From contig JARUPZ010000011.1 of assembly GCA_031213475.1 (NCBI GenBank), positions 1,302,001-1,366,000 of the forward strand: a stretch of DNA of 64,000 bases, written 5' to 3'. Position 1 is the stretch's first letter, and each line of letters begins with the position of its first letter. Made by a program: the position numbers and the translations under genes. Below the pieces are notes generated by a model, which saw nothing but the letters and a program-made list of their open reading frames with translations, was not told where the DNA came from and did no database searches. Positions 721-60,600 of this stretch are shown here, in pieces. Source of the DNA: Nereocystis luetkeana. Its lineage: Eukaryota; Sar; Phaeophyceae; Laminariales; Laminariaceae.

Positions 721-1048
721 TACCTGGTACCTGGTACGTGGTACCTTTACCTGTATTATGCCCATAGTACAATGAATGGTCGGAAGGTGGAGCACCAGAC
801 TTCGAGTATACCAGTATACTATAATATCGAGTACACAAACGTGGTAATTTTTCCAACCCAACCATTTGTACATGAACACAGCAGTAGGTACTGGCAGGTC
901 CCTCGGTTCCCTTTTCTCGCTTAGGCCCATCAATCTAAGGCCATACCTGGTACTGTTGCGCGGACTGGAGATCTGTCCTGTCGTACGCAAATACTACTCG
1001 TATGCAATACGCGTACTGTCAGTATCCGGATACAACGAAGATGTAATG

Positions 1049-1560
1049 TTGCTGTTGTTGTTATCACATCAACTCATCGCCACAATGCAATGCAGTCCGT
1101 GGTCGCAGGACAGGCTCCAATAACTCTGGAGTGGAAGAAATACCTCGGTGAAAAAATAAAACAAGCAAAACGTGGTACACACGATGACTGAAACACATCC
1201 ATCTACACCTCAGACAAAACATGAAAAAAGGAGGTCCGCCCGCGTACGTATCATATACATACGGTACGTATCAGATACATAAGGTACGCTGTAGTACAAG
1301 GCGCCACAGAAACCAAGAAGACCACATACTACCCAGACAAAAAATAGACGGGATGAAAATAACAACTCGACGTCGAAAAATCGAAATCAAAAATCGAAAA
1401 AAATCACATATCCAAGAGGGAAGAGAGAAAAAAAGTTTAAGTCAGGCAAGGAAGCAATAGAAAGCAAGAAATCAAGAAACGACACACAAGAGAATGCGCA
1501 ATTTTTCGCAGATTTCAGGCTCGCACGCATCGCGAGGGGTGTAGAACAGAGGCAAAAACT
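1049..1560 (-). mobile_element. LINE family A, 3' end fragment
   Basis: Begins on the plus strand with a TTG-rich run, then the block GCAGTCCGTGGTCGCAGGAC and CTCTGGAGTGGAAGAAATAC, which is also found at the 3' end of the LINE at 8,550-10,635. It is therefore a 5'-truncated copy whose sense strand is minus and whose tail is (CAA)n. The A-rich part at about 1,285-1,560 recurs at 63,720-63,955 and may be the 3' untranslated region of a sister subfamily. Confidence 0.65.
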
Positions 1561-1740
1561 AAAAAACGTACCAGGGTACCTGGTAATGTATAGCTCCGAC
1601 GGATACCTCTTGTACGGGTTTGGAACCTTCCCTCAAACTCAAAATGCGCTTATCGGCTAAATATACGTTCGGGCCAATGCGGAGGCCATACGACGTACCT
1701 TTCCGGGATATCCGCACTATTACTTCTAACACTCGGTGTG

Positions 1741-1834
1741 TTAATTTTAGAACCGCAGTCCCATTTTGGGGACAAGCCACTCAAATGTTAAGTAGTTTGT
1801 CCCCAAAACGAGACTGCGGTTCTAAAAGGGTTGA
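1741..1834. mobile_element. TTAA-type MITE, copy 1
   Basis: Two inverted arms of about 38 bp (TTTTAGAACCGCAGTCCC and its complement) separated by a short spacer, with TTAA at the left border and a mutated TTGA at the right. The same palindrome occurs at 33,060, 40,801, 46,488 and 63,537. TTAA borders suggest piggyBac-type mobilisation (inference). Confidence 0.8.
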
Positions 1835-2377: not shown

Positions 2378-2426
2378 AAAACCCATCGGAAGCCGGTCTG
2401 AATGACGCAGACACCTATTAATAGGA

Positions 2427-2757: not shown

Positions 2758-3887
2758 AGCGTGCAATACATCACGTGTTGTTGTTGTTGCGGGGGTTCAT
2801 TGGCATAAAGCAGCTGAAATCCAACAGCAACAACAAGAGTCCAATCAAATCTAATTTTGCTGTTTTGGGTGAATCGGGGATATTTCGTTACTTTCCCCCG
2901 AATTTAGCCGTCACTTGCCGTCGCATCCCACAACGGCCCCTTTGCGGTGAAATGGCGGATGAAAAACTGTGGCCACCCCGCTTTTGTTTACTCGTAGGAC
3001 GTAGACAACGCCGTTGCTAAAAAGGTGAATCTGGTTTTGTTCTTTTGGAAGAAGCCTTCCTGATATCGTACCGGATATTTTTTTCACACGAGCGATATTG
3101 ATGGTCGCCGTGTACTCCCGATTATATCGTAGAGCTCCGGCTCCGTGACGGAAATACATACGTGCGAGGTAACTTTCTGCTGCGATCATTTCCTTGACAA
3201 TTCACATCGCATTTTGTTGCGGCAATTTTAACCTTGCGGCTAATAATAATATGACCAACATACGATATATTGTTGAAAGCAACATCTTGACATATCCCAT
3301 TAATACCAATACTGTGTAAAGGTTTCCTCATATTCCTGTCAGACCAAGTCTCAACCTAAATAATACCAGGTACCTACGATCGTAGACCCGGTATATACTC
3401 GTATAGATAGCTACTGGTACTTCCCGAAGCCAGCTCGCCTTGTTTCTACAGGGCGTTGCCGCAAACACAAGCATTGCATACATTCGAATCCGCGCCGAAC
3501 TTGGCTCTTGACAATCGGTCTTATTCCGCCGTAATGGAGATAAGCGGTCTCAAGAAATATCACGGAATCATTCCGCGCCACGGTCCTCGTCCTGGGATAT
3601 ATCGCATTTACGTATATGGTGTTTACATGGGGTCGGCCTCTCATTTGTTCCCCGAATCATGTCGGAGTACTCTACCGCTGGTAACTTTCATGTCACAGCT
3701 ACGAAAGGTCTTCGAACATACATACGTTCGCATTAATATCACCATAACTGCTGTAGTTGGCCACATCTTATTTGTGTCGAACGGAGAAGGGCAAGAGCAA
3801 ACCTGCCTGTAGTTTCCCCAACAAACCACCCCCAGTGGTACTGAGGTTGGGTTCTGCTTGCATATCACCTGAGGTAGAACCCTGCGG

Positions 3888-8046: not shown

Positions 8047-8435
8047 CAGACAGGCACGACATTCTAAAAATCGGAGATATATCGAAAGGAAACAAAAAAA
8101 AACGCACTGGGTGCGATAGACCCGACATACACATTCTTTAAAAGAGAGACCACGAAAGAAACAAAAAAACTACCTGGTACTGCGTAATCGAAAGAAGAGA
8201 AAAAATAAAAGGAAAAAGGAAAAGGTGTCGTGCCCCCCCCGCAGGAGATGTGGCAAACAATATAGAACGACCGAAAAAAACAATACCACCACATCGAAAC
8301 AGAGAACGACTAAAAACGAGGGGAATTCACAGGCTAAACGACGCACAAAAAATATATATACCGTCCACCAACTATTGTTCCTAGGCATTTTATCGTGAAA
8401 GGTCGTCAGCCTTTTTCATGAATTTTTAGTGGGGG

Positions 8436-10635: not shown

Positions 10636-11156
10636 TACCTACGAATGGCTCAAAAAGCCAAGGTACACCTACTATCAGCTATTCAACTTCCGTAGGTCAC
10701 CCATTCATTCTTCTGAATTTCACATCAACCCACCTATCCGAATTTCTTATTTTTTGGAGAAGCTCAGCTTGTCTCGTGTTTTATGGTGCCCTTGTTCTTA
10801 ACAGAGCTACTTGTAGGGGCGGGACGTTTGTCTAAGTACCAGGGATAGTACTAGAAGAGTATCATCAGGTATTAACAGTGTGTGAATTGCTGTATTATTG
10901 ATTGACCACGGGCCTCCACAAATTCCATCTGTAGTCTGTGTGCTCTGAACACACTCGCGTCCTATCGGCAATAGGACAGCAGGCCACGCCGAGCGTACCT
11001 TGCGAAGTCGCGCGAGAGACAGGCCGAAACAACCAGAACTCAAACACATGAAAAACACAAGTAAAGTGCCATCTAGCCGAGAAAAAGAGAAGAGAGGAAA
11101 CATACGTGGATGTCTATGGTTGGCACATGTCGAAATGCACCGCATAAACCACGCAT
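10636..11156 (+). repeat. fold-back element, inner part of left arm
   Basis: Inverted copy of 11,517-12,235, sharing CCAAGGTACACCTACTATCA, GGGGCGGGACGTTTGTCTA and GGCACATGTCGAAATGCACC. The right arm is longer because of small indels and the sequence near 11,990-12,170. Mirror-image frames with the same protein start (MRSRARD) on both strands are a by-product of the palindrome. Confidence 0.9.
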
Positions 11157-11516
11157 CCATACATACATACATACATACATACATACATACATACATACAT
11201 ACATACATACATACATACATACATACATACATACATACATACATACATACATACATACATACATACATACATACATACATACATACATACATACATACAT
11301 ACATACATACATACATACATACATACATACATACATACATACATACATACATACATACATACATACATACATACATACATACATACATACATACATACAT
11401 ACATACATACATACATACATACATACATACATACATACATACATACATACATACATACATACATACATACATACATACATACATACATACATACATACAT
11501 ACATACATACATACAT
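11157..11516. repeat. (ACAT)n microsatellite at the centre of the fold-back
   Basis: About 90 almost perfect ACAT units (ATGT on the other strand) between the two arms. Long open frames of repeated His-Thr-Tyr-Ile or Met-Tyr-Val-Cys here are artefacts of the repeat. Confidence 0.97.
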
Positions 11517-18957: not shown

Positions 18958-21900
18958 CAGCAACAAGGAGCGAGTTGATTTGTCGACGGATTCGTCGTCC
19001 AGCTTGAGCGGGACGAGAGCCAAGGCAGCCACCGCAAAGTACCCCAACATACCAAAGGCTGACAACGGGACGCCCTGTCGGTAAGGCAGACAACCAAATG
19101 CGTCAAGAAAAAACATCGTCACTACATATAAAAACAATGACACAAAACAGAATGAAACAGGAGGAACCAAAATGGTGCGGAAAACAGACTTCATTGGATT
19201 GATCGATTGTCCTCGCATACCCCAATACGACGAGTTCCTATATACACAGCTCCGCGAATCTCTGCGCAGTTTGGCGTGTGTCAACTCACCTTCCGCGGTT
19301 TCGACCACACTATCATAGGCAACACGGGTGTCGTGTCGAGCGGATAAGGAGGCATATATTGCGATCAATTAGACTACAGGGGGAGGGAGAAAAAAACGGG
19401 TACCCGAGCAATTGATGCTCCCGGCATCAAAACCCGTAAAGTTAAGACGAAACACGAGCGTGCGAGCGCACGGACGAATAGGTCCTGGCGGAAACCCACA
19501 ACATTCGCAAAATAGCTGAAGGTCAGCCCTACGATGTATGGCATTGCAACAGCACACCCCGCGAACAGCCTTGACCTCAAAGGGGGCTGCGGCACGGTGA
19601 AAACAATGGCACAAGATCCAGGTGACGCACCACGTGCCGCTATCGAGCTCCGTCAATCGAGAGCACCGACCACGTGCCGAGTACAATATGCGCCCTCGTG
19701 AACGATAATACAGTGTTGTGAACAATCGGCGACGAACCATAAGGGCCGAGGCAAATATCCAGATAGCAAGGGCAACGAGCAACGACACGAAAACATTTGA
19801 ACAGAGCAGGCGCACGCTGCCTCCGATGCGATATCCTCAAGGACATCTTCTTGAAGTGCGATGTCGCGCTTCAAGCACCTTGGCGTACAGCACACCACGG
19901 CATGAGGGGACAGGAGCTTACGAAGAGCCTCGAGTGCACCTTACTCGCAACTCATGCCTATAATCAGGTGTTGCCCATAAACGAAAATGGGACGATGTTT
20001 CGATAGTGGCGTTGGTGACAGCGATGCACCGCCCTGATAAACCCCCACCAGCAGTCTTGCTGCATTTTGGGCACCACGCGTGATGCAAGTGGCCCCCAAG
20101 TGTACCGCAGTGCTTACGCATACACCGATGGTTGCACAGTCGCCCCCACCACAAAAGCATGCACCTGGTGACACGCGTTGACAGCTCGTGCACATGGAGA
20201 CATGCTTTCACACCTCGCACATAAAATGGCATGCATCAACACTCATGTACAGCGCGAAGGGCCCCTGAAGCCTCACAACATATGCCTGATACTTTGTGAG
20301 GCCGGCGGTCAGCAACTCAACAAAGGTACTCACACGGATCATGCATCGACCTTGCCCTTGCTCGGTAAGAGTACCCCTATTGCCCGCAAAGCCGGCATGC
20401 TCCCATACAGAATCAGTGTGATTGCAGGTAGCTTCGCGGCGCTCGCTCTCGCCCAGCTATCAAGACAGGATCTCGCCATCGCGAAGCACGTTGACGGCAA
20501 CTTGCGCCTGGTGTGTTTCCTTTGGCGCTCTTCGAATGACGGCAGACATTTGCTGGCGGCTTTAGCATGCGCCAACGCTCATGGAATAGAACAGACAACG
20601 CTCATGGAATAGACAAAATGCAATTCAGAAGCAAAGGTTTCCCTCACCAGAACTTCCGAGTACGGCCCGCTCAGAACGTCGGCACACCCCCCGCTAGCTC
20701 CGCAAAGGAGGTCAAGTCCCCCCGGTTTGAGCTTCTGGTAGGTCAGGAACGCCGATTCTAGCGCTCCAACGCTGGCCATCGCTCCGATGGCCTTACGATT
20801 GATCGTGGGCCACGCGGAATACTCCGGGACTGCCGAGGGAAAGACGCAGTTTGAAAGGCAAGGCGTATGCAGACAATCGAGGGTTAAGGTGAGCAGAACA
20901 GTGTGCTGTTAACAGGTATACCCTGCAGCCGTAAGGTCTACTTCATTGCCTTGATTATTGGGTGAGGTTCCGAGTCCCCAAGCCTGTGTGTGCGTACGCC
21001 GCCGTACTGTCTGTAGGGGGGCTCTGGACAGCCGCTGTGCAACCATCACGTGCGCTATTGTGTGCACCCTGACACCGCTATGGACGGAAATGTAAAGACA
21101 GTTTTCGTCTTCCTATTTACACCACAACGGTCCTTGCATTGCAGTCCGGAGTGGTACTTCGTACTACGATACTGCTTTGTACCAGGTATATCATGTAGCA
21201 CAAAGTGGTGAAGTGCGTTGTGTTTCTCTGCGGGGCGTACAATACGACCTTCGTTTGAGTGGGAGGGCGAAGGCGTCAACCCTGACAAGTACGCGACGTC
21301 GGACACTACCTAATGTCGGACAACCATAGAACTGGTCGGTATTGACGTGCTAACTCGGACGTAAATAGAGTGCTATTGTGGAACCCACCCGGGGCCAATG
21401 AAACGCAACAGAAACATCATGCACGCTCTGCATTGCAACAGAGTAGTTGTACATAGAGCTCGAAGGGTAAGCATACACAACGCGTGCATTCGATGTGGTT
21501 GTGAAGAGCACGACATGGAGGTCAGCCCTTTCCGCAAGGAGCCAAGAGCCGAAACTATAAAATCAGAGCAAGTCGGATGTTAGCCAGATTTTCGAGTTGC
21601 ATCTGTTCGAGGGATGTTCCGCTTTTTGACTCCCCGCCACCGTCATAACCGTGTGAAACTATTGGGTTTGCGGGGGCCTCGCGGGGTTAAAACAAATAGA
21701 AAGTAACTACACACTCACACGTACGTCAATGCTACTACCGCCGTAGTACGCATTTATGGATGATCTGCATCGCGGATTTTGGAGCATTTTCCCCACCGTT
21801 AGAAGAGCAAATGCGAGTTCTTCCGCCGCCCTCCAAGCCACCATTCGCGCCCACGGAAAATCAGCAAATACCTGGTAGTATACCTGGTATCTCACAAAGA

Positions 21901-24086
21901 CCGGTCCTGCCGCTCATCGCCTTCTTTTGCGATCGGTGGGCTGTCAAGCCGGAATCTTAATAATATCACCAAGTATGCAGAAACCTATACGCACCATGGA
22001 GGGTTCCGACCCGAAAAATCGTGAACAAAAAAGCCGCCCACGACACGCCATGTCTCAACCACAATATGGATGTTGATCACGTCCTCTTATCGAATACCTG
22101 GTAGTAAATAGGCTGTCGCAACAGCGAATGGCGTGTAACCGACGCGCCGACAAATACTCCAACAATGCAATAAGGATACTACAATACAACAGAGCGCTGC
22201 CAACGAACAAGAGAGGTCGCCACCAGGGAACACAGGGATGTAATAGGTAAAACAGCGGTAGGCCACAGAAAAAAATAGGGGTGTGTCAGGCTTATAGTAT
22301 TTGGCCTCTCTCAAACCAGTAGCTATTAGGTATCCTGTGTGAGAGAGTTCTGGTTTTACACCGAGTGTTCGATACAAGACAAGGCCTCTCTTATATCGAA
22401 TACATAGATAATAATGCCGCCGCTTCGAGGGCACTGCAAGTAATGCCCTTGCCGTTGTGGCTGCCCGATAGTATGAGATATAAAGTGTACCACGTATTCA
22501 TTTGATGACCCCTGTTGCACTACAGTGACTCAAGCCGCAGACTCGAGCCGCAGTGCCGCGACCCCTGCACTCACCCATAAAACAAAAGCACACTCAATAA
22601 ACAGCTGAAAAAACGCGCATCCCTCTCGCCCAGCAAAAGAGCACTGCTATGTACTATTAATGCTACTGTGCATGACTACTTGCATTTGATACTACAGCAG
22701 AACAGCACAGCAGTACGAGGATATACTCCAACATTATGTTTCGTCTTCAAGTTTCATGGTCCCACACCTGTTCACACCCTCGCCCGCTCTGGTGTCGAGC
22801 CACCGAGCTCGAGTTCGAAGGGGTACCAATGAGTTCGTTCGAAATGAGAGAGAATCCCGGGGGGGTCGATCAGAATCACTCGGATATGAACCACGATTTG
22901 TGCCAAGCCATTTTGACCTCACTTAAACCAGTACTTGCCCCAATTCGGTACCGTACCAGGAGGCTCTAAACTGCGATTTGTGTTGTACTCAGTATCATTA
23001 AGGATGACTATTATGGGGGACCATATTAACTAGGACCTACGGTACACGCAAAAAGCTGTATATTTCGCTATTTTTACCAAGAACATTTGGTCCTATTTAA
23101 TATGGTCGTCCCGTAATATTAATAGTAAGTATTCGTACCTTACGGCCACTCTCATAGCTGATACTTTCATCTCCCTGTACTTGCTACGTGCGTACAGCAG
23201 TAACAGTCAGGAAGAAGCTCGAGTTCCAGGGTAAACCGCGAAGCACTGCTGAAAAACTGCTCGTAGAGACCGCGGGTCGACCCCTTGACTGACCACCCGC
23301 TGCACTAAAAGTAGTATCTGGACGCCAAAAAGGGCTAAAAGAGGCCTTGACGGCCCAATATGCCCAGTCTCTTACTCGTCATGATTTCCTATGAATTAAT
23401 TCATACCAGTAGCATATTAGCTTTGTTTGAGGGTGGATTAGAACGGACTACGAACCGGCACGTCGGCAAATGCGGTATACATGGCGGTATCATGTGACAT
23501 GTTGATGGATGGATCGCGTAATATAATGCCCGTATGTGCGTATCATATAGGCTTACAAGAGTACCCATATACCTGGTAGGCTTACAAGAGTACCAAGTAT
23601 CGTATTCGTACGTACTTTTATGTCCTGTCTACACACCAACAGACTGCATGCAGGCAACAGACAGACGGCAGTGGCCACGCCAATAGCTTCAGTAAACAAA
23701 CAATACCTGGTACTTACGTACTCGTACGCCAGGAACTATTGCTACCGGCGAATGTTATCCACCAGTACTGGAACTGCAGCTATTTAATACCAGGTACCTG
23801 GTAGTATTAAATACTTTAAGTACACACTACTGCATGCACTCGTACGTACGTGTATACGTACCTGCCAAGTACCAGGTATCAGGTACCATCAGTACACACA
23901 GCAGCAGCAGTATCGGAACCTGTGGGAGGCAAACCGTCTAAAAAACACGGCGTGGGAGAACAGCAAGCAAAACCGAGGGTACCAACCTGAAACGTGAATC
24001 GAATTAATGGAATGTTAATGTTTGCCGCCTGCGCCGGTTGCACTGCTGCTGCTATCATAGACCAGGCTGCTGCGGCGGCGGCAGCA

Positions 24087-24117
<31 letters not shown>

Positions 24118-32195: not shown

Positions 32196-32544
32196 ACACA
32201 GGATTAAAAGCGGCAACCGTTGTCTTTTTTTTCGCGTGTTAGTACTGTTATACCAGGCGTAGGTGCAGGTGGCTCGAACCCAAGCCCGGGGCACTGGCTA
32301 CAACCTTGACATGATGCAAATATATTTGATGAGGACCTGGTGCGGAGCTTCTTTTTTGTGTGTCCGTAGTATTCGCAAGTTGAAACGAGTTTATACATGC
32401 GGTGTTTGCGAACACGCTGGTTCACGCGGAGTTTTTCATGTACCTGGTATCATGTTATGTGTGGTGTACGGTGTACGATGGTGGGAATCAGCAGTACTCG
32501 AGGTGAGTCGACGAGCCCGTGGCGAAAACGCTCAAACATGTTTA

Positions 32545-39000: not shown

Positions 39001-42000
39001 CCAACCTATTTAACGGAAACCCCAATAAGAAATCCCGCAGAGGAGATATCTGAACACACCACAAATGTAGATTGTCTTATCATCTCCCCAACTTCGGCAC
39101 GCCTACTAATGATATTAACATTTGCGAATACTCGTCGAATGATATCTCGTTTTTGTACGTCTCCGCTCGTTTTGTGTCGACGCACACAGTCAACCCAGGG
39201 CAACAAATTTATTTAATACCAGGTACCAGGTACCAGGTATGTACATTATTGAGCACAAATTTGTCATAAGAAAGTAGACGAAAACGTGTTGTTTCTTAGT
39301 GCGAAGAAGGTATTAATACCATCGTGAGAAACAACACCAGTCCGGGGGGGGGGGGGGGGGGGGTGGTCTCTCTCCGATACGCTTGGGGTTACTCGTTGTC
39401 GAACTCAGAATGCTGATATAGCCCAGCGTACCAGGAAGTGAACGCTGTTCTCTACTGATTGCAGGCATTCGTATTTCCCGGTAGCGGAAACTCCTCGGAA
39501 ATAGTACCGGTATAGCTCACGGAAATATATTAGGTAGAAGAACGGCGTGTCCATTGCCCCCTCTCAATAAAAATCGCCCCCAAGATAGCATGGAAACCCC
39601 AGTTGTTTTCATGTTTTACGCTGTAGAAAGTTGTATTGTGTAGCATTTACCGTGTTTTCGAACGCCCAAAAAACACATTTTATTCAAGTCAGCGAGGACA
39701 TGGAAAAAATATAGGAAAATATTGGAAACAAGAGCTGCAACCGGTCAACATGCTTGGGATACTCAAGTTGTCGCCAACTGCTGTGATACCACGCGGAGAA
39801 AAACCGCATGAAAGGAAAGCCCGAAGGCCTGAACAAATGGTACACTTCGGCTTGATAGAGTTCTTGGGCTACCGGAGGTGATACGTTTAGCCCTCGCCTA
39901 AAAATGACGCCTCACTCCTGTCCTTGGACGAGAGGAAATAGCGGAAAAAATCCGGAAAGGCCGAAAAAGGCTGTTTCAAATATTCCGGGTCCAGCTGGGG
40001 AAATAGGCATTCCTGACAGATGCAGGTTTTGCCCGTGCGCAGGCCCTGCGAGTGGCATTTTAAGGTATAATGCTTGTACTGGCATGATGGCGTGATACAT
40101 CTCAGAAACAGAAGGCATTACGTAATCGGTACCAGGTACCTGGTACCTCGTAGTGCACGGCCGTACGCAGAGCTTCAAATGTGCGCTTCGGCTGTACGTC
40201 TCATAGTACTATTATTCATAATACTTCGTGCTATTTCTCTGTAGTAGGAACGATACTGCTCGTACGTACGTACTAGTATTTTATACCAGGCAGGCATGCC
40301 AGTACGGCCCACGAATGTATCTGGTTCATTTGTAAATACCTGGTTCATCCCGACATGTGCGTACGAGTCCGTCCTCGTTTACGTAAGCTACGGGGAATTT
40401 AGAAGCGAATACGAGGTACGACCGTACTACAGCAGTGCTTTATGAATACGACGCCAAAGAACTAGGGCGCAATTTCGAGCTGGAGTACTGCTTTCGATTT
40501 TTGAATTTGGAGGTATTTCACGGCGGCCGAAACCTCCTGCTGTAAACCAAGCATCATCGGAAGACAACGACCACCTTCCACCAACGCACACAAATTGTCG
40601 ACAGCAGTTGAAAATAAACCCGTACGCACGTTCGGACGAACAGCGACAGCCAAACTATCAAGTGGACTGCTGTTACTTGGAGTCTTGTCTTGTTAACACT
40701 GCATATACGGGTCAAGTTGCGCTGCGAACGGTTAACGGCCTGGACTGGACTGTGTGTCGCATTACTACTTCGCTACTGATACAGCTGTAGCAGGAGGGCA
40801 ACCCTTTTAGAACCGCAGTCCCGTTTTGGGGACAAACCACTCAAATTTCAAGTAGTTTGTCCCCAAAACGGGACTGCGGTTCAGGAAAGCCTTTCCGTTG
40901 GTGGGGAAAACATTCAGAATTACAGTAGGTTGATGCACACCGCAGTACAGCACAGAGCTGATGAGGTTGGAGTACGTACACCGCAGTACTTCGTAAAAGA
41001 GCTGTATCATTACAAGCGGTACAAAAAATGGGAGTTAATATGAATCTAGAAGAGTACGAACAATTTCATTTTTAATAAGAAATCAAGCCTGAGTCAGCGT
41101 TCATGTTTCTTACTGCTAGCCTTGCAGCGGAATGTACGAAAAAGTACGAGTACTCGTCGCAATCGTGTACCCAGCGAGAGCCGTGACTTCTCGTACACTG
41201 ACGGGATTTAAATACCAGGAAACCCACTATTAACATGAATCCCATCAACAGAACTCCAGCCTGCACCATTCCGTTCCTTTCATACGAGTTCTAGCGCCCA
41301 AGTACTCCCATGAAAATACAAGGAACATCAGTAGTATTAATATTAATAGTAGTATTATTAATAGTAGTGTGGGCAATTTGTACTGCTGCAGTAAGGGGTC
41401 CTAAAAAGCGAGTACCTAGTATGATACATCCCAGACCAACGATTCGCACACAGCCGTCAAGTACAGCAGTCAAGTCAAGCTCAAACTACCGGTGCGAGCA
41501 GATCAACCACTTCACCGTTGACTTCATTATCGTCTCTCTCGCGACTCAGTGACGCAGGACCAAATCAGGCATCAGGTGTACCAGTACTTCCAAGTATATA
41601 TCAATCAGTTGACACGAAGAATATCTCCTGTCCCAGAAACAGAGCATTCACACCGCACTGAATGCAACCCCAAACCGCACAACCTCTCGCGTGGCCTTGC
41701 CGCGGCATTGCGCGCGGTATCGTGCTGTCCTGTCCTATCGCAACCCCCTCGCGCCACCGCGCCTTCGTGCGGGACTCACATGCCCGGGAGCTTGATGTAA
41801 GCGCGGACGTTGGCGTTGTTGACATCGATCTTGTCGCCACCACCCAGGAAAGGCACAATCGGGTTGTCCACCTCCGCCAGCACAGGTGCCGCCGCGAGTC
41901 CGAACACAGCCGCCGCGGACACCGCGGACTTGAGGAAGTCCCCACGGCTTGCGGGTGTCGTGTTCTCGGCGGACATGACGGTCGTCGAGCTAGGGGTGCA

Positions 42001-46235: not shown

Positions 46236-46487
46236 TTTGGATTGTGCAACTCTTCCATGGAAGGGCATCACTAGCTATCAGCAGCTGCAGCCACTACACA
46301 ATAGTTGTTCTGTACTCCATTGTCGTCCTCGCGTCATAAGAGGGACGCACCGCACCCCGCAGTGCCCCGCAGTGAGTGGCGTATCTCATCGAGAGAGACA
46401 GTCTGCCAGTACTGATGTACAAGAAGTAGCAAATGCTCACGGTGTACGTATAGAGTAAGATTGCACTCGTGCGTACCTGGTATGAAA

Positions 46488-46580: not shown

Positions 46581-48654
46581 ACATCAACAACAATATGCGC
46601 GCGTCCAACACCCTTCCCAAGGAACGTGGCCAACAGGCTGTCCGATCGAAACATCCGACACCAGACATCCTGTAATATGCCTTACGAAGGAGCACTAGAG
46701 CATCAACGTTACAGGGCTGCATGCGCCATGCAAGCTCTACGTTCGAGCGTGTGTTGTTTTTGAAGAAGGCGCGTCGCGGTAGGCAATAACTCAACGAACC
46801 AGTGGGTTAGTATCCATAGACAGGAGTAGTGGATGTATAGAGCAGAGCTTGGACGGAGGAAGGCTATCCTAACGATCGATTGATCGATTCGTCGAAACGC
46901 TCCTTTTTCCAAGGCGTAGATTGACCACGGCAACGCCAATGATACAAAGTGGGTACGGTTCTACAGAGGCGGTGAATCGGGGTCGTGTCTGCCTTGTCGC
47001 TCAGAACGTCCTTCAAATCACTCTGCTAAGATATTCCAAGAGGCCCTCGAGGAAATCGGAAAACGAGCTGCATATATATGGCCGCGGGAAACACACAAAC
47101 CGCCCCCCATCGTGGTATTGGCTTGCGTTCGCGGTTGTTCACATCGACATCTTTCCAAAGCCACCACCAGGTATTATTTTGGTCGAGAGCGATGTGTCTA
47201 TGGAAATATTTCGTGATGATTTTTCAAAGCCACCTAAGTCGTATTTTGGTTGTGAGTGCTTCTCTTGCTTTGGGGAAGCTGGGCTCGGAAAAAGCCTTGC
47301 CTGTTGCTACCTCGTACGAGTACACAGTAGAACGGCCATCGGGTTGGAGACGTGAAGCGTCGACCACTCTGTGATAATGTTCCTTGCACAGTAACCCGGT
47401 ATGCGTCCGGAGCGCGACAGTTCGCTTGTACGTAATGGCCGGGTCGATGTTTTTTGTACGGATACCCAACAGTCGGAGCGGTAACGGGTTCTATAACAGG
47501 CCCTGCCTTCGAGCTATTGTTACTATCGATACAATGGTCGGTCATACAGCATATACCTCTAGAGAGAGGATGTGGCTTGAGGACTGAAAAACAACAGGAG
47601 TGCTCGTAGCAGCAGTATTTGTGAATATACGCGTCAAGAATGCCGAATCAATCTATTACATCTCGGTTGACAGTTTTTCCGCGTGGAAACAAGACCAAAA
47701 TTCACAAAGAGCTGCAGCATTCGAGGTGTGCTCTTGAGTACTGAGTACCGCTCTAGTAGTAGTGGCTTTGGCACACCCTTTGGTATATCGGATGTTCTGA
47801 TACGAGTACGAGTATGCATCGGGTACGAGTGCATGTTACATTGTTGCATCGTCTTGGAGCAAACAAACGAGTTGGGTCTGCAGGTGCCGTGCAAACACAA
47901 GCAAATCTGAAAGTGAAGCACATAGCGGGCGGCTGCAGAGCTCGACGGGAGTCCGTGCCCCACTCGCACACCGGAAATATCTCAAGAGAAAAGCACTACA
48001 AGCACAAAACGAGTGCCAAAGGGCATGCATGGTCATCGTGCAAGCAGGGTCGCGTGCTGTCAACTCTCCGCATTCCGCGTTCCGCATTCCATCCCATACC
48101 GTCGGTCGAGAGAGAGCCGCCGTTCGTTCGTCGTCTTGCAAATGTAGGATAGGCAAAGAGGGCAAGATCAACAGTAGCCCAGCTCAATCTATACCAGGTA
48201 CCAATACTCAAGTTTCGAACGCAGTTGTAGCATCCACTGCACAGCAGAATGCCCCGAATATCATCGTATGCTTCCGACTTCGAACTGCTGAGTGGTGCGA
48301 TATGATGGTACTGGTACACATACTCGTACTGCGCGTTACTAAAACTCGGAGTAGGGCAAATACTATCTATCCCATCTGAACAGAAGCATCTAGTCATCGC
48401 AACATCACCCAATATCAGGATATATCAGCTCACCTTGTGATACCCCACGTCCTTTTCGGCCACCTTGCGCTCACAGCCCCCCAGTAGATCTCGCTTGGCC
48501 GGTAGTGGGCTTGCTTCACTGGTCGTACGTACTACTCCCGTTTAGGTAACGCCTCTACATCTTTATAGACCCGTTTCGAAGCATGGTTTCTCGGTCTCTC
48601 GTGCTTCTTCAATCTTTAACCCTTTTCGTTGTGCTCTTGGAGACTGCAGTCAAT
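46581..48654. other. intergenic region upstream of bL28m
   Basis: No exon or known repeat supported. A weak direct repeat (TTTCCAAAGCCACC / TTTTCAAAGCCACC) lies at about 47,150-47,245. Confidence 0.4.
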
Positions 48655-51600
48655 ATGTCGCTTCTGCGAAGACCGTCGATGAGCTTGCTGGAGGACTTTG
48701 CTAGAGGGTGCAAAAACCCCAAGATGACCCAGTATTCTAAACGAAGTCAGGTTGGGCTTTACGCTGGAAAGGATATTAGGTGAGTCAACACCGCAAACCC
48801 CAAAGTCGTGTAGCGTCCACTTGAGACTTAGGGCTGCTGACTGCTGAACAGCAGTACCAGGTACTGTTGTACTACTGCTGTAGTACCTGGTACAACTTAA
48901 TTTTCTCTTTGCGGCAGCAAAACAGTTAGATTGCGTAGCAGTACGCACAATGGGGTCGGAGCACAGTGGTTGGCGCCACCCTCTGTGCCGAGAGCCGAGA
49001 GCACTGCTGATATGGTAATGTTTTGAGAGCGTTCGAAGACGTTCTGCTGTGTACAGACAAAAGGTGTACGAGTACATACTTCGGATAATCATGCATAACC
49101 CGGTTACCCAGTACACCCGTATGGGCAAAACGCGTGACGGGTCGGGTTTGACTCGAAACACGCGGGTTTTGGGGGTAGCCAAAACCCGGGTACTCGGCCT
49201 GCACCTATGTTGCCCTGTCCTAGAGGTGTCCCCCGGATGATCGAAACCCGGGTACTCGTCGGGTACAACCCGGACGGTGACGGGTTCGGGTTTGAAACGA
49301 AACCCGCGGGTTTAGGGGGTGTCCAAAACCCAGGTACCCGTATGTTTGGCGTGTCCCCGGTTTAGTATGACTCACAATATCTCTATAAACCTCTCAAATC
49401 GACCCGAAACGGGGTGTCCCCACAGGTACTATTAATACCCGTTTTTCAGACTGAATGAAGGAATACCCATGCCTTCTCCACGATTTGCACGGAGGATTCG
49501 AGGATTCCCACTGATAGTTTCACACGCGTGTCTGCATGCTAGTATCTTCGGTATGCTGGGGGGGGTTACTATTACGGGGGACCATAGTTAATAGGACCTA
49601 TGGTATACATAAAAACCTATATATTTAACCATTTTTACTAACAATATTTGGTCCTATTAAGTATGGTCCCCCGTAAATAGGGGGGTTACTACCGGTGTAT
49701 ATTTGTATGATAGAGATGGTCCACAGCGTGCAGTTCCACTGCCCGCGGATCCCAGTGAGATCCTGCACACGAAGGCCAGGATTGGTAAAAAAGACGGGGA
49801 TGTCCCGCCGCGCGGGAGCTGCTGTATGCACCTCTTTGAATAGAGAAGTATTCGCAACAGGCAACAGGCAAGCAGACGAAGGCAGGACAGTACCCTCTTG
49901 TTGTTCTACGTGTACACACACAGAGAACAGGCCCCGGATATATATACCCTCGTTTGTAGTCCCGCCGCACCGGAGCTGCTGTGTGCGCAGATAGAGGTAT
50001 TCGCAACAGACAGACAATAAGCAGGCAGACAGAGGCAGGACACAATACTCTCTTGTGCTACGTCCACACACAGAAACAGGCCGGGATATACCCTCGTTTG
50101 TAACCCGCTGTAAAAGCGAGGAGAATCGGATCTTTAGGTTGGTAGTCTGCTAAGAAATTGTCATCGTAATAAGAAAAACGGCACAGCGGTGAACCGGGTT
50201 GTTTGAATATTAAGAACCTCAGGCTCGCCAAGATTGGGCGCGTCTGGTTGCCTGGCCCATACTCTGTATGAGTGTAATCGCCAGAACAGCCTGTGGTCAC
50301 AGGACAGGCAAAAACCGTCACCGATAGTATAAAAGCATCCAGGGGAGTCATTATTATGATTATTGACCAGTAGTCGATCGCGGGGGAAACAATGGAAAAC
50401 GCTCGAACGGGTTACGACGGTTGCAACGCTGAGTATCAACCGATCGGTTGAACTCACAGCTGACGTGCTTTGTGAGGTTTTTATAGGTGACAGCCCGATG
50501 AGCGAACGTGTCGGCAGCTTGAAGAGAAGATGAGTTTCGATCACTCAATCGGTCGTACTCACAGCTGAAATATAGAAAAAACAAAAGCGAGTTTCAACCA
50601 CTGAATCTGTCGTACAGCCACCTGTGATCACAGGTGACGTTTTTTCTTAGTTCGGCTCATTCTTATCGGAAATCATTTTTTACTTAATCATCTCCAAAGT
50701 TTGGAAATAATTGGAGATATGTATCAATATACGGAGGCGTTCTGTCAGACCTATGCCAATGGTACAGCGAAGTTGCAATAAAAAGTTTGAATTTCAAAAA
50801 TACCCGCCAAAAAAAATCAGAACACGCTTCCTATGGGCCACGTAAAAAAAATATATATATATCCTAACTTTTGGAAAAGCCCAAAAAAAGCAAATCTGGG
50901 GCCGATGTTGGGCCAACATCGGCTTGAGAAAAACTCAGGCCGATCTTTGGTTCGAAGCGGCGAGATTCCGAGTCCTCGACAGACATCGATCAACAAAACC
51001 AATGATTGCGCCATGAATTCTGAACGGAGTGCGCTCGTTAGGGGCTCCGACCCACCCTAGGGTCACCGTCTTCACACCATGGCCGGTGTCATGTGGCGGG
51101 AGCTGACCAGGAGTGTGATAAAAAAACATTTGGCCGCTGGTTTGCACAAAACAGAAGACAACACTTCTCCATCCGTCTCGAATGGCAAAAAATAGAGTTT
51201 TTTTCAGGTTTGGGAGGATACCGAAGGACGCCGCCGGCAAGCTCTCGCCCCCTAGACCATGAATCCACCCGATATCTTCGAGGCCGTCATCTATATTCGT
51301 TGGGCTTGCCAGATACCGAGTGGGTTGGCCGTGGGCTGAGTCTATGTCGAGATCGAGCGTCGATCGTCGCACGAGCTGGTTTTTATTACCGTGTTGACAA
51401 TTTGCGACCAGGAAAACACAAATTGCGCCGCCTGCAGCCGTTGGGGGGAAAAAACAAAAAAAAAAACATTTTTCTCTTTTTTTCCCCACAGCGGCGGTAC
51501 GAGAATTTTTTCGGCTGTTTTTTGAAAGCGATATATTTGAAAAAAAACTTTTGAACTTCGCGTTTCCATTGGCATAGGTCTCACTATTCGTGAAATTCTC

Positions 51601-54600
51601 CTAAAGCAAAAAAATAAGTTCGTTAAATTTCACACATTTGCAAAAAAAAACAGGAAAATATGGAAGATTGAAATATTGGGCGAAAACGATGTCGAAAATA
51701 TGGGGGGGGAAAAACTCTCCGATATATAAGAGTTCCGTAAGAATGTAATCATAATGTAGCAAAGGCTCAAATTGTAAAAATAAAAGATGGGACACTGACG
51801 AAAGTTTGCGAGTGGGTTCCAACCACTCAATGGATCGGACACACAAGTAAAAATGCGCAACAAGAATTCAGGCGAGAAACATTCCTCACGTCGGACAGAT
51901 AATCGATGATCTAGATATTTGAGGGCAGATATATTTCCTTTTCTCTGCGATCTAGCTCATGTTACAGGGTGTCGGGCGATCTGCCTTCCGTATAGGATGG
52001 CGGAGCTAATGCAATGCACAAATATTTGAAAAAATATGTTTTTTCACTGAACTTAACCTATACCTGGTACAGAAGAAGCAAGCGCCGAGGCTGCTTACTA
52101 GCGTGTCCACCCAACAAGAACAAACGAGTTACTCGGCGTATCGCCCTAAACGCAGCTCGAGCACGAGGCCGCCGGCTGTATCTCGTCGAGTGGACTTCGC
52201 CAGCGATTTACTTTCCACGCCAGCAGCCTTACTGCTCTACGACATCAAAACAGAGAGCCGAGCCCTTTACCCGCGAGGGTGGGCTTCACGTACGCCCATG
52301 CTCGTCAAACCGTGTTTGAGTACCAAAGAACGCAAGAAGAGCTCGAAGTAACGTCGCGGCAGAGGGAAGAAGGCAAGCTGTTCTCGTTCGTGCGTCCGGT
52401 GGAGGCGCGGTCAACGGAAGAGTCGACATCGCGCGCTCACTGACGAAGGTCGCTCCACATGCCCGAACTGACGGATTGGACAAGGCCCGACCGCGGTAGG
52501 CTCATATCGGGTCTGCCGGAGCTGCCGCACACTCACCCCCCCAACCCGGCGGAGGAACAAACGATGGATACGCCACGTGGGCGACGTCCCTCCTGAAGGC
52601 AATCAATAAGACAGATCCACCTTTCTTCACCAACAGAGAGACCGTACATGAAATAAGAGAGACCGTACAGCGGATGCGAAGTATCTTCATGGCCACAGCG
52701 ATGAATGTAGTCTTGTGGGTCTTTCGTCGAAACCGCGAGGCGTTCTTCACGATCCGTGACAAGGATCTCGTCTTCGGAGCTTTCGTTGCCGCTTGACCCT
52801 TCCTGTCGACGATCCTCTTCGGCGAGCGAAGATCTGATCCACGCGAAAACGGGCCTTGTGCGGCATAATATAGGCTTTTGAGATTTTATGCTTTCCGACC
52901 AACCCATGATCTTGCACACCGCAGGAGGCGCGACGAGCTCTGTTCCCGATAAAACAGTGCACAAACTAGACTGTACAATCTTCCGGGCACGCTCAGAAGA
53001 GGGAAAGCCTTCCCCCTCCTATCGCAACCTAGGCACAGCATCGGATAAGAGAGGAAGAATGGTACCCATTGTGCGAGTCGATTTTGTTCTGTATACATCA
53101 AGATGTAAAATACAAGACCACGAGCGTCGCCATTTCCAAGGATTACTTTGATGCCCATATTGGAACGTACACACTGTTGAACGACCCGATTGACGGAGTT
53201 GATGTGGGTTGACCCACGCCTGACTTCGACGATAAAATCGTCATCGTCGGCTTCAGGTCGCTGTCCGGCCTGGCGCGCAGCCTTTCGCGCGCGCGTAGCA
53301 CGAAGAATTTCAGCTTCAAGTAGCTGTGCAGGTTGGTGGTCGGCATGCTCGTCCATATGTATTCGAACATTATCCATTTCAACAGAGCCATCTCCATGCA
53401 CACGTTTTACCATTCTTGATTTACTACCGATTTATATTCGTATGATAGAGATTCATTTCATTTACTCGAGCCGTGACGCCTGCTCGCCATGGAGACCTGG
53501 GAACACCACCTACTACCTGTGGCACACATAATGTCAACATATCTTTCGCTACCTGAATGTATGTGTTTGCTGTACTCGTATGGAGTTCGAGTACGAACAG
53601 AAGTGTGTCGAGTACTCGTATCTGCTTCTTCCTGCGCAACCATACATAGGCTGCGCGCTACAATTTATACTAGGTATCATCAGGCATTTATCCCTACTTT
53701 GGTACATATACTCATCATGTTGTGTAGCTCGCAAAGAACTGCCAGGTAAGAGTACCGTGTTCCGTATGTATCAGGTAGTAGATCCGTACAACATCCAAAG
53801 GGCAAACCGATTGCGTTTATTTCTAGTGCTGTAGTTATTGGGGGGTTTTTAATACCCGGGCCTCTGTTCAAAGTACAAGATTAAATAAACACACCAGCTG
53901 AGACCTACGCCAATGGAAACGCGCAGCCCAAAAGTTTTCTTTCGAAAATATTGCTTTCGAAGAACAGCCGAAAAAATTCTCGAACCGCCGCTGTGGGAAA
54001 AAAGAGAAAAAATGTATGATTTTTTCTTTTTTCCCCCAACGGCTGCAGGCGGCGCAATTTGTTTTTTTCTGGTTACAAATTGTCAACACACTGATACAAA
54101 CCAGCTCGTGCGACGATCGACGCTCGACCTCGACATGGACACAGCCCACGGCCATCCCGCTCGGTGTCCGGCAAGGCCAACGAATATAGATGACGGCCTC
54201 GAAGATATCAGGTGGATCCATGGCCTAGGGGGCGAGAGCTTGCCGGCGGCGTCCTACGGTATCCTCCCAAACCTGAAAAAAAACTATATTTTTTGCCATT
54301 CGAGACAGATGGAGAAGTTTTGTTTTCTGTTTTGTGCACAGCAGCGCCCAATTGTGTTTTTTATCATATGCCTGGTCAGCTCCCGCCACATGACACCGGC
54401 CATGGTGTGAAGACGGTGACCCTAAGGTGAGTCGGAGCCCCTAACGAGCGCACTCTGTTCAGAATTCATGACGCAGTCGTTGGTTTTGTCGATCGATGTA
54501 TGTCAAGGACTCGGAATCTCGCCGCTTTGAACCAAAGATCGGCCTGAGTTTTTCTCATGCCGACGTTGGGCCCAAGATCGGCCCCAGATTTGCTTTTTTT

Positions 54601-57600
54601 GGGCTTTTCCAAAAGTTTGGAACTTTTTCCCCCCCCAAACGTGCCCATAGGAAGCGTGTTCTAAAAAATCTCGGAGGGTATCTTTGAAATTCAAACTTTT
54701 TATTCATTCTTCGCTTTCCCATTGGCATAGGTCCGAAATCGATGAGTTCGTCGAAGCTGATCTTTGCAAGCTGTGTGTGATACTTGCTGGTAGTGTTATT
54801 TGAGGGTTATAGTTATGGTTTCGACATCAAATCGTAGTCCGCACTGCTGTCGTCCGTTTGTGATACCCCTCCATGACCGTAAAAACGAAAACGGCTTGTC
54901 CGAGTACCCGGCTTTACCCGAGTTCTCGTCAAACCCCTTTGATTTCGTCTGATTACCCGGGTTACCCGCGACGGGTCCGGGTTTCATTTTCAGAATTATC
55001 CGAGTATTATACCCGTTTGTGACGGGTAATCGCCGAGGTACACCTCTAGACTGCCCACAAAAAAACTGATATTGTCAAAACTCCCGGCACCTAGAGGCAC
55101 TGGAACCACTTCTTTTTCCTGAGGAAACTTCCTTCTTTTGCTCCACAGTATTATAGCTCCGAACGTCCCCATGGAGCTAACATTTGTCAGGGCAGATATT
55201 ACCTCCTTGGCGCACTCGCGTGAGTGTGCCAGAGCGACAGCACTTTTCGTGTCCCCCCTCGGGGCGGACCTCGTCGCTCAAGTTTGAAAATGTGGTTCCA
55301 GGCGCTTGAATTTTCGGGTTCTCGTACTGTCGTAGGCACGTACAGTAGTTTTTCTTCTGGTGCAGACCAAGGAGACAAGGAGGAACGCAGAAGCTGCACG
55401 AGTACGTACTCACAACAGGGTGCACACAGTTCGGCTCGCGTGCTCTCGCTTGCGCCAGTAGAAGCATGCAAAAAAACACTGATTTTTTCCCCGATGCCCA
55501 CGCAGACGACACGTAGTGCGCTTGTCTCGATATTATAGGCTGGATATGCTCTTGGGAAAAGGTGCAAGAGAACAACGGAGCCTATTTTCTACATATGTAT
55601 GCACGAGTGAGTATATACGGCAGTAGCTTTTCTCCTGGGCTCCTCCTGCTCGTTCTACTGCAGGGAAAAGAACACTTAGCTACAGTACGAGAAACCGACC
55701 GTTCGAGCGCTTGGAACCACATTTTCAAATTTCAGCGACGAGGTCCGCCCGTAAGGAGGACATGGAAAGTGCTGTCGCTTTGGCACGCTCACGGGAGTGC
55801 ACCAAGGAGCTCATATCTGCCCTGCCAAAATTTGGCTCGATGGAAACATTCGGAGCTACTGCAGAGCATAAAACAAAATATCCCCAGGAAAAAGGTTTTA
55901 CCACTAAGAATTGTAATACGTAACACTGATTACGAGCGAACAGTGGCAGACGTGGATCCAGTGGTTTTGTTGTCGGGGTGTTTGTGTTTTGTGAGCAGTG
56001 CAATCCAGGTGGTGACCGGTTGGAGCATCTGGGTACCCTTATGTTTGGCACATGTCCCCCGTTTAGTATGTCTCAGAAAATCTCTAGAAACCTCCAAATC
56101 GACAGAAAACGGAGGAGCTACTACTTTTTACGAGGAACAGTGCGGAGATTTTAATCACGATTACGGGGACATTTACGAGCCATCCCCGGAATTCAGGCCT
56201 TGCGTTCGGGTTGGAGATAGGGTTAGGGTTGTTGTTAGTTGCCGGCTGTGAGAATTGCAGTGACGGGACTTGACGTGATCTTTTTTATAGTGTTAGTTGC
56301 CGGTCTTTGTTTGTATCACGTGAAGTCCCGTCGCTGTAATTAACACGGTCTTCAAGTCCGGCAACTAACACTAACCCTCACCGTATCCCCTACCCTAACC
56401 CTATCTCCAGCTCGAAACGCAAGGCCTGAAATCCGGGGATGGCTCGTAAATGTCCCCGTAGTCGTGGCGCCAACCCTAACCCAACGTAATCGCCATTACC
56501 AGTTCCCGGAACCGGGGTCCCTGTGGCCTGTCCACACTGCCCACAAAGAGTTTCCGCTACTGCTGTCGTTTTTCCTGTCATGTTTGTTGATATCTTTGAT
56601 GGCCTTTGGGTCTACTACTTGCAGATGCACGATGTACCAGGTACGCTCGTAGGCATGCAGTTCTTTTCAGTTCTTTTAGTTGAGCCGTGACACCTGCCCG
56701 ACACGGAAACCTGTGAACGCCGACTACTATTAATATATGGCGCACATAATGTCTATTTGCATTTGGCTACCAACCTGAATGTGCTCACTTCAGGGGCATA
56801 CATAAGTGTGGGTATATGATGTTTCGGTGTTCACGTAAAGCTGCCCGTTCAGGCCAACTTCCTCAGGAGCCTTTACCGCCATCTTGACCAACAAAACGGA
56901 CCAGATTAATACATGTTTGCGGTGGTCCGCGCATTTTTCAGATCGTCCGAAACGCGCGGCGATTCCGCGCTCGGGTCGAGCCCTAGCCTGGACTAGGGTT
57001 GGGGTTGGGGTTATGACTAAGGTTGGAGTTGGGTTGGGTTGACGCCTTTTGGTGATTTGTTGGCAAAAAAACGTCCAAAGGACGTAAAACCGGCAAAAAT
57101 CAGAGTGTATTTGGTACCCTGTATCTGGTATGATTTCCATGCTGAAGACCGGTAAAGGTACCTCAAGTTCCTTAGACGTGCCCGAACAGAAAATAGAGCC
57201 TTCCCAAGCATAACCGCAGCTGGCACACCAACCAAGTAGGCCTCTCTCTGGTTGGGGTTACGGTTAGGGTAAGAGTTGCGGGTCGGGGCGGTGGCCGCCG
57301 CTAGCCGAAGCCGGCAAACGTCTGACCATCAGGCAGCGTCGGGGACAAATCCCCTGCAGTTTCGTGACTAAACCCTCCCTCATAAGAAGAGCGTAATTTG
57401 TTTCAGGCACGTCTGAAAAGCTTCGCCTGAACGGGCAGATATACGTCAGCTGTTTTTTTTGCGTACAACCATTACATACATACGCCGCACGCCCTTACTC
57501 GTACACGCACGGCGTGTCGCTCCATAGCAGCACATCATAGTCATTAGGTTGTGCAACTGGGCATGAAACACCTAGGTAGTGCCGGTATGTATCGGGTGTC

Positions 57601-60600
57601 ACACTCAAAAACCGAGGCAAGCGGGTTGCACATGTTTTCGTGATTTCTTGATATTCTTACGAGTAGGAGTATTTAATACCCGGCGCTCTGTTATTGTTGT
57701 TTGTTGGTTCTAGCTTTCGTTTCGACATTGAATCGTACTACACTCTGTTATCCGCTTGTGGTACCCATTGATAACCGATAACCGAAACCGGTTGTTCGAG
57801 TACCCGGGTTTTACCCGAGTACTCGTTGAATCCGTTTGATTTCGTCTGAAAACCCTGGTTGCCCGCGACGGGTTCGGGTTTCAATTTCAGAATAATCCGA
57901 GTACAGTACGCGTTTGCGACGGGTACTCGCCGGGGTACACCTCTAGTCTAGCTATTCAAAGTACAATTTGTGCCGAGAGCAACATGTTTTGAGAGACGAG
58001 TTCGTTGACGCTACAGTACTTACTGCTCACCTGCACGTCCACCTGGCATCTGCGTGTGTCGTATGCATTGCGTTATGTTGCAGGCACAGACCTCTAGCAG
58101 CGTAGTTGCGGTATTTGTGAATGCGGCAGTGCATTTTGCCTGGTATTGTTGTTGTTCTCACAGTAACTCATGCCCGGCCATATTGACTCCATGGTCACGG
58201 AACAGGCTCCAAAAAACGTATACGAGTGTAGCTGCATACTTGAAGACGAGGTGTACGTGATAGTAGAGCTCGTTCGCGTGGGAAGCTTTATTGGCTGAGG
58301 CGCAAGTACCATGACGCTGGCGTTTACTCTTCGCAAAAGCCTAGGAGCCCCGTCGGCCGTCAGCGGACGCTATTTACGTAGGAAGTTTGTGGTGTTCGTA
58401 TAAAGTGTCGAATTGGCTTTCTGCGGCGCTACGTTGACGCAGCAGCACTGTAATGACTGACTGTCGTTGTATTGCATCGCACACATTCCACCGAGAGACG
58501 AGCAATGCACCCTTCTGGCGTTGTCATGCCGTCACACACGTTACGATACCCGCAGCACTTACTACGTCTACAGCACTACAGCACTATGGCGTCAAACTTT
58601 TGCTATGCTGAATGAAGCTGCTGCCATATACCGAGCACGCGCACATATACGCGGCACGACTACCTTGCTGTCTGTTGTTCGTCTCGTGGGGTTAGAGTTA
58701 CAGTTACCTGGTACACTCGTAGGCCGTTTCGGACCCAGGCATTGCCACCCTAAGTATGATGCCAGATACCAGGTATAGCACCTGGTATGACAAGTGTGGT
58801 CTCATCGACAGCAGTTCGGTCGGTCTTTGGTCGGTCTTATGAACGGTCTCTAACGTCAATGATTTAATAATGCCAGGGTCGTGTCAGCGCGTAGCAGTTG
58901 GAGTGCGGTGGTATGGGTGTGGTGTCGCGCAGCACGCGGTTCGTCAATGGATTTTCCCCTATCCCAGCAGGTGGAGCTGATTCCTATGGGCGATGCTGTA
59001 GTCGCCATTTTATTTCGTCGGGCGTTGCCTCTGAAAGCCCGGACGCCCAAAAGGGTCGTACCCTATTATACGCCTGCTGTACGGACGGTAAATCATCTGA
59101 AAGCATTTTGTCCCAATTTTTCTGGCCATCCGCTATCAAATATGACAACATCTGACAAAGGGCGGGGTTTAACCTCTCAACCATTCCATTCGTCTGTGGA
59201 TGATAGGATGCTGATACACTCGATGCTGATCCTCTTCCTGTTGCCTAAACAGGTTCGGCAACTCTATCTCCTTCTCCAACAAGAAGAACAGGAGGACATG
59301 GAAGCCTAACGTGCAGAAGAAGGCCCTCTACAGCGAAGTGCTTGACGAGTAAGAATCGGGTTAACTGCCGGTACTATTCTAGCCGATGTATGGCAGGCCT
59401 TTCAAGTGACACAGCGACGCGCTTATATATTATCGCATTGTCATATTATACGTGTTATCATATCGTCGCTAACATTTGTAGGTATAATTGTATACTATTT
59501 TCGCCTAGGGTGCACGCTTCCAGGTGTTCTTAAGCCCTATGCCATCGACTACCGAATAGCAAAAATATATATATATGAATGTGTATGTGTCATTCAAAAG
59601 TGCCCAACTATATGTTGTCCGCTCTATTTTGTACGAGCACGTACTCATTGTATCGGCAATCGACACACGCTGCAAAAACTGGAGGCTTGATGTACGAACT
59701 GCGTAAGCCGTATAGTGCGTATGAAATACCAGGGTTTATGGTACCAGGTATCCGTTTGGGTTGTTTTGTGTATGTCGTGTCCCATTTTCGACGTCTGAGC
59801 GCCCTCCTTGCCTTGCCTTGCCTTGCCTTGTCTTGCCTTTCCTTGTATTTCCTTGTCTTGCATTGCCTTGTTTTGCCTTACCTTATCTTGCCTTGTCTTG
59901 CCTTCCCTTATTTTGCCTTGTCTTGCCTTGTCTTGCCGTGTCTTGTCTTGCCTTGCCTTGCCTTGCCTTGCCTTGCCTTGCCTTGCCTTGCCTTGCCTTG
60001 CCTTGCCTTGCCTTGCCTTGCCTTGCCTTGCCTTGCCTTGCCTTGCCTTGCCTTGCTTTGCCTTGTCTTGCCTTGTCTTTCCTTGGCTTACATTTCCCCG
60101 CCTTGCCTTGCCTCGCCTTGCCTTGCCTTGCCTCGCCTTGTCTTGCCTTGCCTTGCCTTGCCTTGCCTCGCCTTGCCTTGCCTTGCCTTGCCTTGCCTTG
60201 TCTTGCCTTGCCTACGGTCGGGTGTTGCTTGGCTGTTGGGTGAACAGCTGGATCAAGTTTCATTTGACGACACACGCTCTTCGCTGCGTCGACAAGGCTG
60301 GTGGGATTGACAAGTGCGTCTGGTCGTTTTGCCGTTTCAATCGAGGCCACTATTCTCAGCCACAGGGTGGTCCACTGCCGAACCACTTGGCGACAGTGTC
60401 ACTAGTAATATTAATAGTAAAGTGTTACCTGCTGCAAACTGCGATGCCAGTTATTCATACTAAGAGTGTCGGCGGCAAAGTGGTAGGCTGCATTGCTACC
60501 GAGCAGCAGTGTCAGCGGTAAACGTGCTACGCTCGTACTGCAATGTTATTAAGCACCAGGTTCAGTAGCTTAGCGTTGTACTGCTTTGTAGCGTTCGTTT

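Follow-up and report, generated by a model that had tools for sequence, protein, structure and literature searches.

A near-palindromic TA-CCWGG-TA word in the genome of the brown alga Nereocystis luetkeana as a probable excision footprint of a cut-and-paste DNA transposon

Introduction

In Tc1/mariner transposons, a central mismatch yields two forms of the excision footprint, and the target preference is palindromic. Ciliate IESs are bounded by TA and are removed by programmed excision, which is precise and restores one TA. Selection can also keep a motif throughout a genome, and the HIP1 words of cyanobacteria are an example of this.

How active a cut-and-paste transposon has been over its lifetime is difficult to measure, since its excision often produces varied traces or no trace at all. 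According to excerpts of PMC7827188, the 3-base 3' overhangs of Sleeping Beauty and mariner become the footprint between two TAs. For rice, an excerpt of PMC4423477 gives 8 perfect cases among 94 putative excisions. The brown alga Ectocarpus carries almost 12,000 Mariner-Tc1 copies, which are mostly non-autonomous, and the main text of the paper that describes them (PMC12477816) uses the terms "footprint" and "excision" 0 times. Among the papers listed in literature searches, judged by titles and abstract openings, none described the word studied here as a genome-wide scar.

In this study, we analysed a stretch of 64,000 nucleotides from contig 11 of the Nereocystis luetkeana assembly (hereafter the window), additional loci and the whole assembly. 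We believe, with a probability of about 0.8, that a cut-and-paste DNA transposon with TA as its target left each copy of the 9-mer TACCTGGTA (reverse complement TACCAGGTA) as a footprint when it was excised. As in the Tc1/mariner elements Sleeping Beauty, Mos1 and Tc1, as far as the cited excerpts describe them, TA is duplicated and a few terminal bases remain between the TAs. Unlike in those elements, five bases (CCWGG) remain here instead of three, and more than 180,000 scars stand against no element seen in the 276-293 kb searched. Since the dominant product has five bases, which does not agree with a three-base overhang, we do not file the parent of TACCWGGTA in Tc1/mariner (IS630). One exact product prevails here, unlike among the rice DNA-transposon footprints in the excerpt above. 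The large-scale removal of TA-bounded segments would resemble that of ciliate IESs, except that a 7-bp scar remains. Excision footprints as such are known; none of the papers listed in our searches showed one prevailing scar that is this dense, has a self-complementary core of five bases and seemingly attracts further insertions.

Abundance and dispersal of the word

The window contained 35 exact sites of the word on both strands together, and 100 dinucleotide-preserving shuffles of the window gave 0.40 on average and 2 at most. The 465-Mb assembly (465,085,209 bases counted) contained 91,155 + 91,240 = 182,395 copies of TACCTGGTA/TACCAGGTA and 883 + 861 = 1,744 copies of the reversed control word, which is an approximately 105-fold excess and a spacing of one word per 2.55 kb. 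In an unselected sample of 264 kb, made up of the window and 20 loci of 10 kb, 21 stretches in all that were selected without regard to the word, 87 copies were found vs 2.35 expected; the density ranged from 0 to 6 per 10 kb and was zero in 3 of the 21 stretches. A preliminary description of this DNA had reported the word as over-represented and near-palindromic. Both statements hold, the excess goes beyond what was claimed, and each of the 13 positions cited there has an exact copy within 5 bp. The sites in the window are collected in Table 1.

The flanks were distinct at 79 of the 87 copies in the unselected sample, which bears out the earlier view that the word is not tied to one repeat family and rules out a single family as its source. 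The same description had found the word absent from exons; our weak test agrees with this, as the three ORFs that matched Pfam, one with a score below the curated cut-off, contained 0 words. The Pfam scan of 10 window ORFs and 85 sample ORFs returned reverse transcriptases and ordinary domains, and neither the Rfam (gathering) nor the tRNA scan of the window had a match. Viral contigs searched with two doubled words gave 1 and 5 stretches, respectively, and 0 when searched with a MITE end.

Table 1. Positions in the window of the word, of its tandem forms and of the control MITE with its predicted footprint
Feature	Position	Strand	Observation
Tandem double footprint TACCTGGTACCTGGTA	721..736	+	exact word twice, 7-bp step
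Footprint TACCTGGTA	944..952	+	exact word
TACCAGG-G-TACCTGGTA, double footprint with one additional G	1569..1585	.	exact word at 1577-1585
Footprint TACCTGGTA	3364..3372	-	exact word
Footprint TACCTGGTA	8171..8179	+	exact word
Footprint TACCTGGTA	21180..21188	-	exact word
Pair of footprints, 12 bp apart	21869..21889	+	exact words
Footprint TACCTGGTA	22095..22103	+	exact word
Footprint TACCTGGTA	23570..23578	+	exact word
Footprint TACCTGGTA	23704..23712	+	exact word
Mixed double footprint TACCAGGTACCTGGTA	23788..23803	.	exact 16-mer
Footprint TACCTGGTA	23870..23878	-	exact word
Footprint TACCTGGTA	25302..25310	+	exact word
Footprint TACCTGGTA	26007..26015	+	exact word
Footprint TACCTGGTA	32441..32449	+	exact word
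Footprint TACCTGGTA	37196..37204	+	exact word
Footprint TACCTGGTA	38316..38324	-	exact word
Triple tandem footprint	39217..39239	-	exact word three times, 7-bp step
Mixed double footprint TACCAGGTACCTGGTA	40130..40145	.	exact 16-mer
Footprint TACCTGGTA	46474..46482	+	exact word
Footprint TACCTGGTA	48192..48200	-	exact word
Footprint TACCTGGTA	48855..48863	-	exact word
Footprint TACCTGGTA	48884..48892	+	exact word
Footprint TACCTGGTA	52061..52069	+	exact word
Footprint TACCTGGTA	56635..56643	-	exact word
Footprint TACCTGGTA	58705..58713	+	exact word
Footprint TACCTGGTA	58767..58775	-	exact word
Footprint TACCTGGTA	59742..59750	-	exact word
Footprint TACCTGGTA	60636..60644	-	exact word
Full copy of the 105-bp MITE (ends TTACGGGGG/CCCCCGTAA), internal control family	49572..49676	.	
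CTATTAATAG, predicted footprint of the control MITE in its own target	509..518	.	
Further CTATTAATAG positions	2415, 8782, 13192, 32085, 34573, 37290		

Insertion at TA

The word aligned to a bare TA in paralogues, with a clean 7-bp gap, at L015:2705, L013:6518 and L018:1633. The paralogue test covered 116 word sites in 293 kb, some of them in loci chosen for the presence of the word or of a related one. A paralogue spanned the site in 13 of the 116 cases, among which 4 were empty, 3 filled and 6 not callable. All 3 filled sites belong to a single locus (L003) that contains a 282-bp local tandem duplication; of the 4 empty sites, one (L009) is based on 75-84% identity. For the control sites TANNNNNTA, paralogues were available at 256 of 1,023, and 160 were filled, 76 not callable, 9 empty and 11 both; one of the "empty" controls coincides in part with a word site, and a second one is TACCAAGTA, which is one transition away from the word. 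Without L003, the word sites were 4 empty to 0 filled (Fisher p = 2e-5, or 2e-4 when "both" is counted as empty), and with L003 kept, the values were 6e-4 and 6e-3, respectively.

At the loci whose paralogue could be called, the word corresponds to a net gain of 7 bp, TACCWGG, at TA. One TA was present in the empty paralogues and two in the filled sites (4 callable sites), and the TA duplication of the putative parent is deduced from these scars and not from an element. The paralogous empty sites suggest that the insertions postdate the duplication of the repeats, that is, ordinary transposition in time.

Target context and ageing of the word

At the 70 solitary sites, the word was preceded by A or G in 86% and followed by C or T in 81%. 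TA was found at -7 in 18 of the 70 and at +6 in 17 of the 70, vs 8-9% beside background RTAY. The target of the word is palindromic, R-TA-Y, and a further TA tends to lie 7 bp away on either side. Since this preference is symmetric about TA, it is what would be expected of a dimeric transposase that picks a palindromic target.

The one-mismatch neighbours of the word in the window numbered 0-6 each, vs 35 exact sites. In 264 kb, there were 57 one-transition neighbours vs 19.0 expected and 41 transversion neighbours vs 33.1 expected, and the one-mismatch excess was 0.54 of the exact excess, approximately 0.06 changes per site. This spectrum looks like the neutral ageing of initially identical copies, and because the excess near-copies are mostly transitions, we read it as neutral decay. 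One exact product prevails, with minor TA-X-TA forms in which X is CCGG (16 sites), CCCGG (9), CCAGGG (7) and CCATGG (4); these fit other joinings of the proposed CCAGG/CCTGG ends or later mutation.

Tandem doublets

The preliminary description had called the word often doubled. The mixed doublet TACCAGGTACCTGGTA is present only 2 times in the window, which makes "often" a loose term, but its 4,522 genome sites against 0 for the reversed control do support doubling. The same-type doublet TACCAGGTACCAGGTA, counted on either strand, had 9,539 genome sites (reversed control 2), and the mixed doublet of the other order, TACCTGGTACCAGGTA, had 1,856 (reversed control 0), so that AA/TT : AT : TA was 9,539 : 4,522 : 1,856. 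CCAGG and CCTGG were thus mixed in 6,378 of 15,917 doublets (40%), and the same-type share was 60% vs 50% under independence. Duplication of a unit cannot yield mixed doublets, and they therefore rule out slippage, which had been offered as the origin of the palindrome, as the main source; the same-type excess leaves room for a part of slippage.

The mixed doublets can be explained by repeated insertion, and the 2.4-fold gap between their two orders suggests a side preference of the second insertion at a footprint. A neighbour at 7 bp was found for approximately 17% of the words in the genome and for 16 of 86 in the sample, which, in our judgement, is far above random landing; it fits the favoured TA at that distance.

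A control MITE and its presumed footprint

A MITE with the ends TTACGGGGG...CCCCCGTAA had 16 full copies in the sample, 12 of them of 105 bp. It is short, has terminal inverted repeats and a TA duplication and is present in several copies, and we take it to be of the Stowaway-like kind. Among its 32 flanks, T was at -2 in 29, A at -1 in 26 and C at -3 in 24; farther out, beyond the C, A was found in 17 and T in 13 of the 32. The MITE inserts into C-TA-G, outside which the base preference is weaker. If a 3-base TTA overhang paired over two of its bases and was then filled in, TA-TTAA-TA would result. The second word in great excess is TATTAATA (TA + TTAA + TA), as predicted from the TTA ends of the MITE. 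Its 92 flanks had C at -1 in 55%, A at -2 in 58% and T at -3 in 61%, which places the predicted footprint in the MITE's own target, with a partial match of the outer bases. The genome contained 22,282 sites of CTATTAATAG vs 267 of its control, and a single TATTAA insertion of 6 bp against paralogues was found (L020). Part of CTATTAATAG might be pre-existing favoured targets instead of scars. Because both the element and its presumed scar are visible in this family, the footprint reading of the first word becomes more likely.

The form TA-X-TA recurs among the strongest dispersed words of the sample, several of which have CCWGG, TTAA (inside CTATTAATAG), CTCG, CCGG or CAGCAG as X. The words TACAGCAGTA, TACTCGTA and TACCGGTA were also in excess in the 264-276-kb sample and are possibly footprints of other TA elements. 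The telomere-like word CCCTAACCC was found at 15 distinct places vs 0.98 expected in the 264-kb sample. The word TACCAGGCATG had 1,374 sites vs 98 of its control genome-wide, a 14-fold excess, and is not readable as a simple footprint. As an element end it was rejected, since 20 fetched of the 1,374 sites (L025-L044) diverge after CATG, with the exception of L026 and L027. In their first 70 bases, these two have a common hairpin-like inverted repeat that ends in TACCAGGCATG and runs across the word. The joining of longer ends by CATG micro-homology was rejected as well, as the joined form TACCAGGCATGCCTGGTA had 0 sites.

Search for the parent element

An element with CCAGG/CCTGG ends was not found among the matches listed for the 276-293 kb searched. 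The search for inverted ends in 276 kb gave 168 TA-flanked pairs, 70 of them listed. Ends starting with CCW formed 31 pairs vs 2, 14, 22 and 6 with other flanks, and ends starting with CC formed 45 pairs vs 8, 33, 31 and 22. As we read them, the 30 listed of the 31 CCW pairs are mostly footprint pairs or known repeats. When pairs of CCWGG half-sites were tried, 2 of 38 had 8 or more of 15 matches. No transposase was found in the Pfam scan of 85 of the 788 listed sample ORFs.

Discussion

We propose that the ends of the putative element start with 5'-CCAGG (or CCTGG) and that the transposase, on excision, would leave the five end bases as overhangs at both flanks. These overhangs could pair with each other as C:G, C:G, a mismatched A.A or T.T, G:C and G:C, and sealing and repair would then give TA-CCAGG-TA or TA-CCTGG-TA. 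We infer the length, the polarity and the pairing of the overhangs alike. Later insertions would favour a TA with another TA 7 bp away. The footprint itself offers such a TA, and the scars may therefore grow into tandem arrays of mixed CCAGG/CCTGG units. The number of near-identical scars would then be the record of a very active transposon. Several points count against the footprint reading. Neither an element with CCAGG/CCTGG ends nor a transposase was found within the scope given above, and 182,395 scars is a very high number for an element without visible copies. Five bases exceed the three of Sleeping Beauty and mariner, and would make this footprint a variant. Few word sites had a paralogue that could be aligned, and TACCAGGCATG does not fit a simple footprint. 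Tentatively, and rather doubting it ourselves, we consider a lineage with a self-complementary five-base end (CCAGG) that has more than 180,000 near-uniform scars and few resident copies; it might be a domesticated system for excision, or else a transposon that is hyperactive and either does not accumulate or purges itself, and its scars would draw the next insertions and form a readable history.

A programmed or domesticated excision like that of ciliate IESs, in which a germline-limited or self-purging class is removed nearly always and scars outnumber elements, would account for 182,395 scars without a parent copy found in the 276-293 kb searched and for the prevalence of one product. We consider it unlikely, since the paralogous empty sites suggest insertion after the duplication of repeats and the removal of an IES leaves a single TA, not CCWGG. 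To our knowledge, no such process is known for algae. It is about equally improbable that the word is a protein-binding or methylation motif with a CCWGG core kept by selection throughout the genome, as the preliminary description had suggested among its possibilities. An exact, near-palindromic word with an approximately 105-fold excess and so few one-mismatch neighbours in the window would be in keeping with it, but a maintained motif fails to explain the exact 7-bp insertion at TA and the near-copies dominated by transitions; the base preference outside the word and the like behaviour of the second, MITE-linked word also speak against it. The recombination motif named in the same place comes nearest to our reading, if recombination is taken in the broad sense of transposition.

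We give even less weight to microsatellite-like slippage, by which a 7-bp unit TACCTGG would arise and spread locally through tandem duplication. Tandem arrays with a 7-bp step do exist, and the same-type doublets are somewhat over half, but 70 of 86 words are solitary, 40% of the doublets are mixed, and solitary words at unrelated sites would require a template. Just as hard to credit is an origin without any footprint, in which the word belongs to an abundant dispersed repeat or to the end of one element. Several repeat families occur in the sample, and among the half-sites TACCWGG without the second TA (91 in 276 kb), TACCAGG is commoner than TACCTGG (49 vs 31), with a short CA(TG) leaning (TACCAGGCA), which would suit such an origin. 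It is opposed by the distinct flanks of most sites and by the half-sites themselves, which have no common continuation except a three-copy repeat in L008 and the leaning just named.

If the word is an excision footprint, a single scar per 2.5 kb that ages by point mutation would make transposition countable and datable genome-wide, and target choice and repair outcome would be readable from over 10^5 events. Many 7-bp insertions are implied, which would shift the frame where they fall inside exons. If it is true that the element keeps few copies yet moves often, this would challenge the view that copy number tracks activity.

Other features of the window

An ORF on the minus strand at 24015-24596 has a hydrophobic leader and an AAFV motif, which by eye is like complex-plastid targeting, and had no Pfam match. 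An ORF with the reverse transcriptase domain RVT_1 lies at 9125-10459 (-). A large inverted repeat extends over 10636-12232, and its centre is a (CATA)n array at 11154-11520. The window also contains a CCTTG pentanucleotide array of 81.6 copies at 59806-60213 and two copies of a 204-bp tandem unit at 25571-25979.
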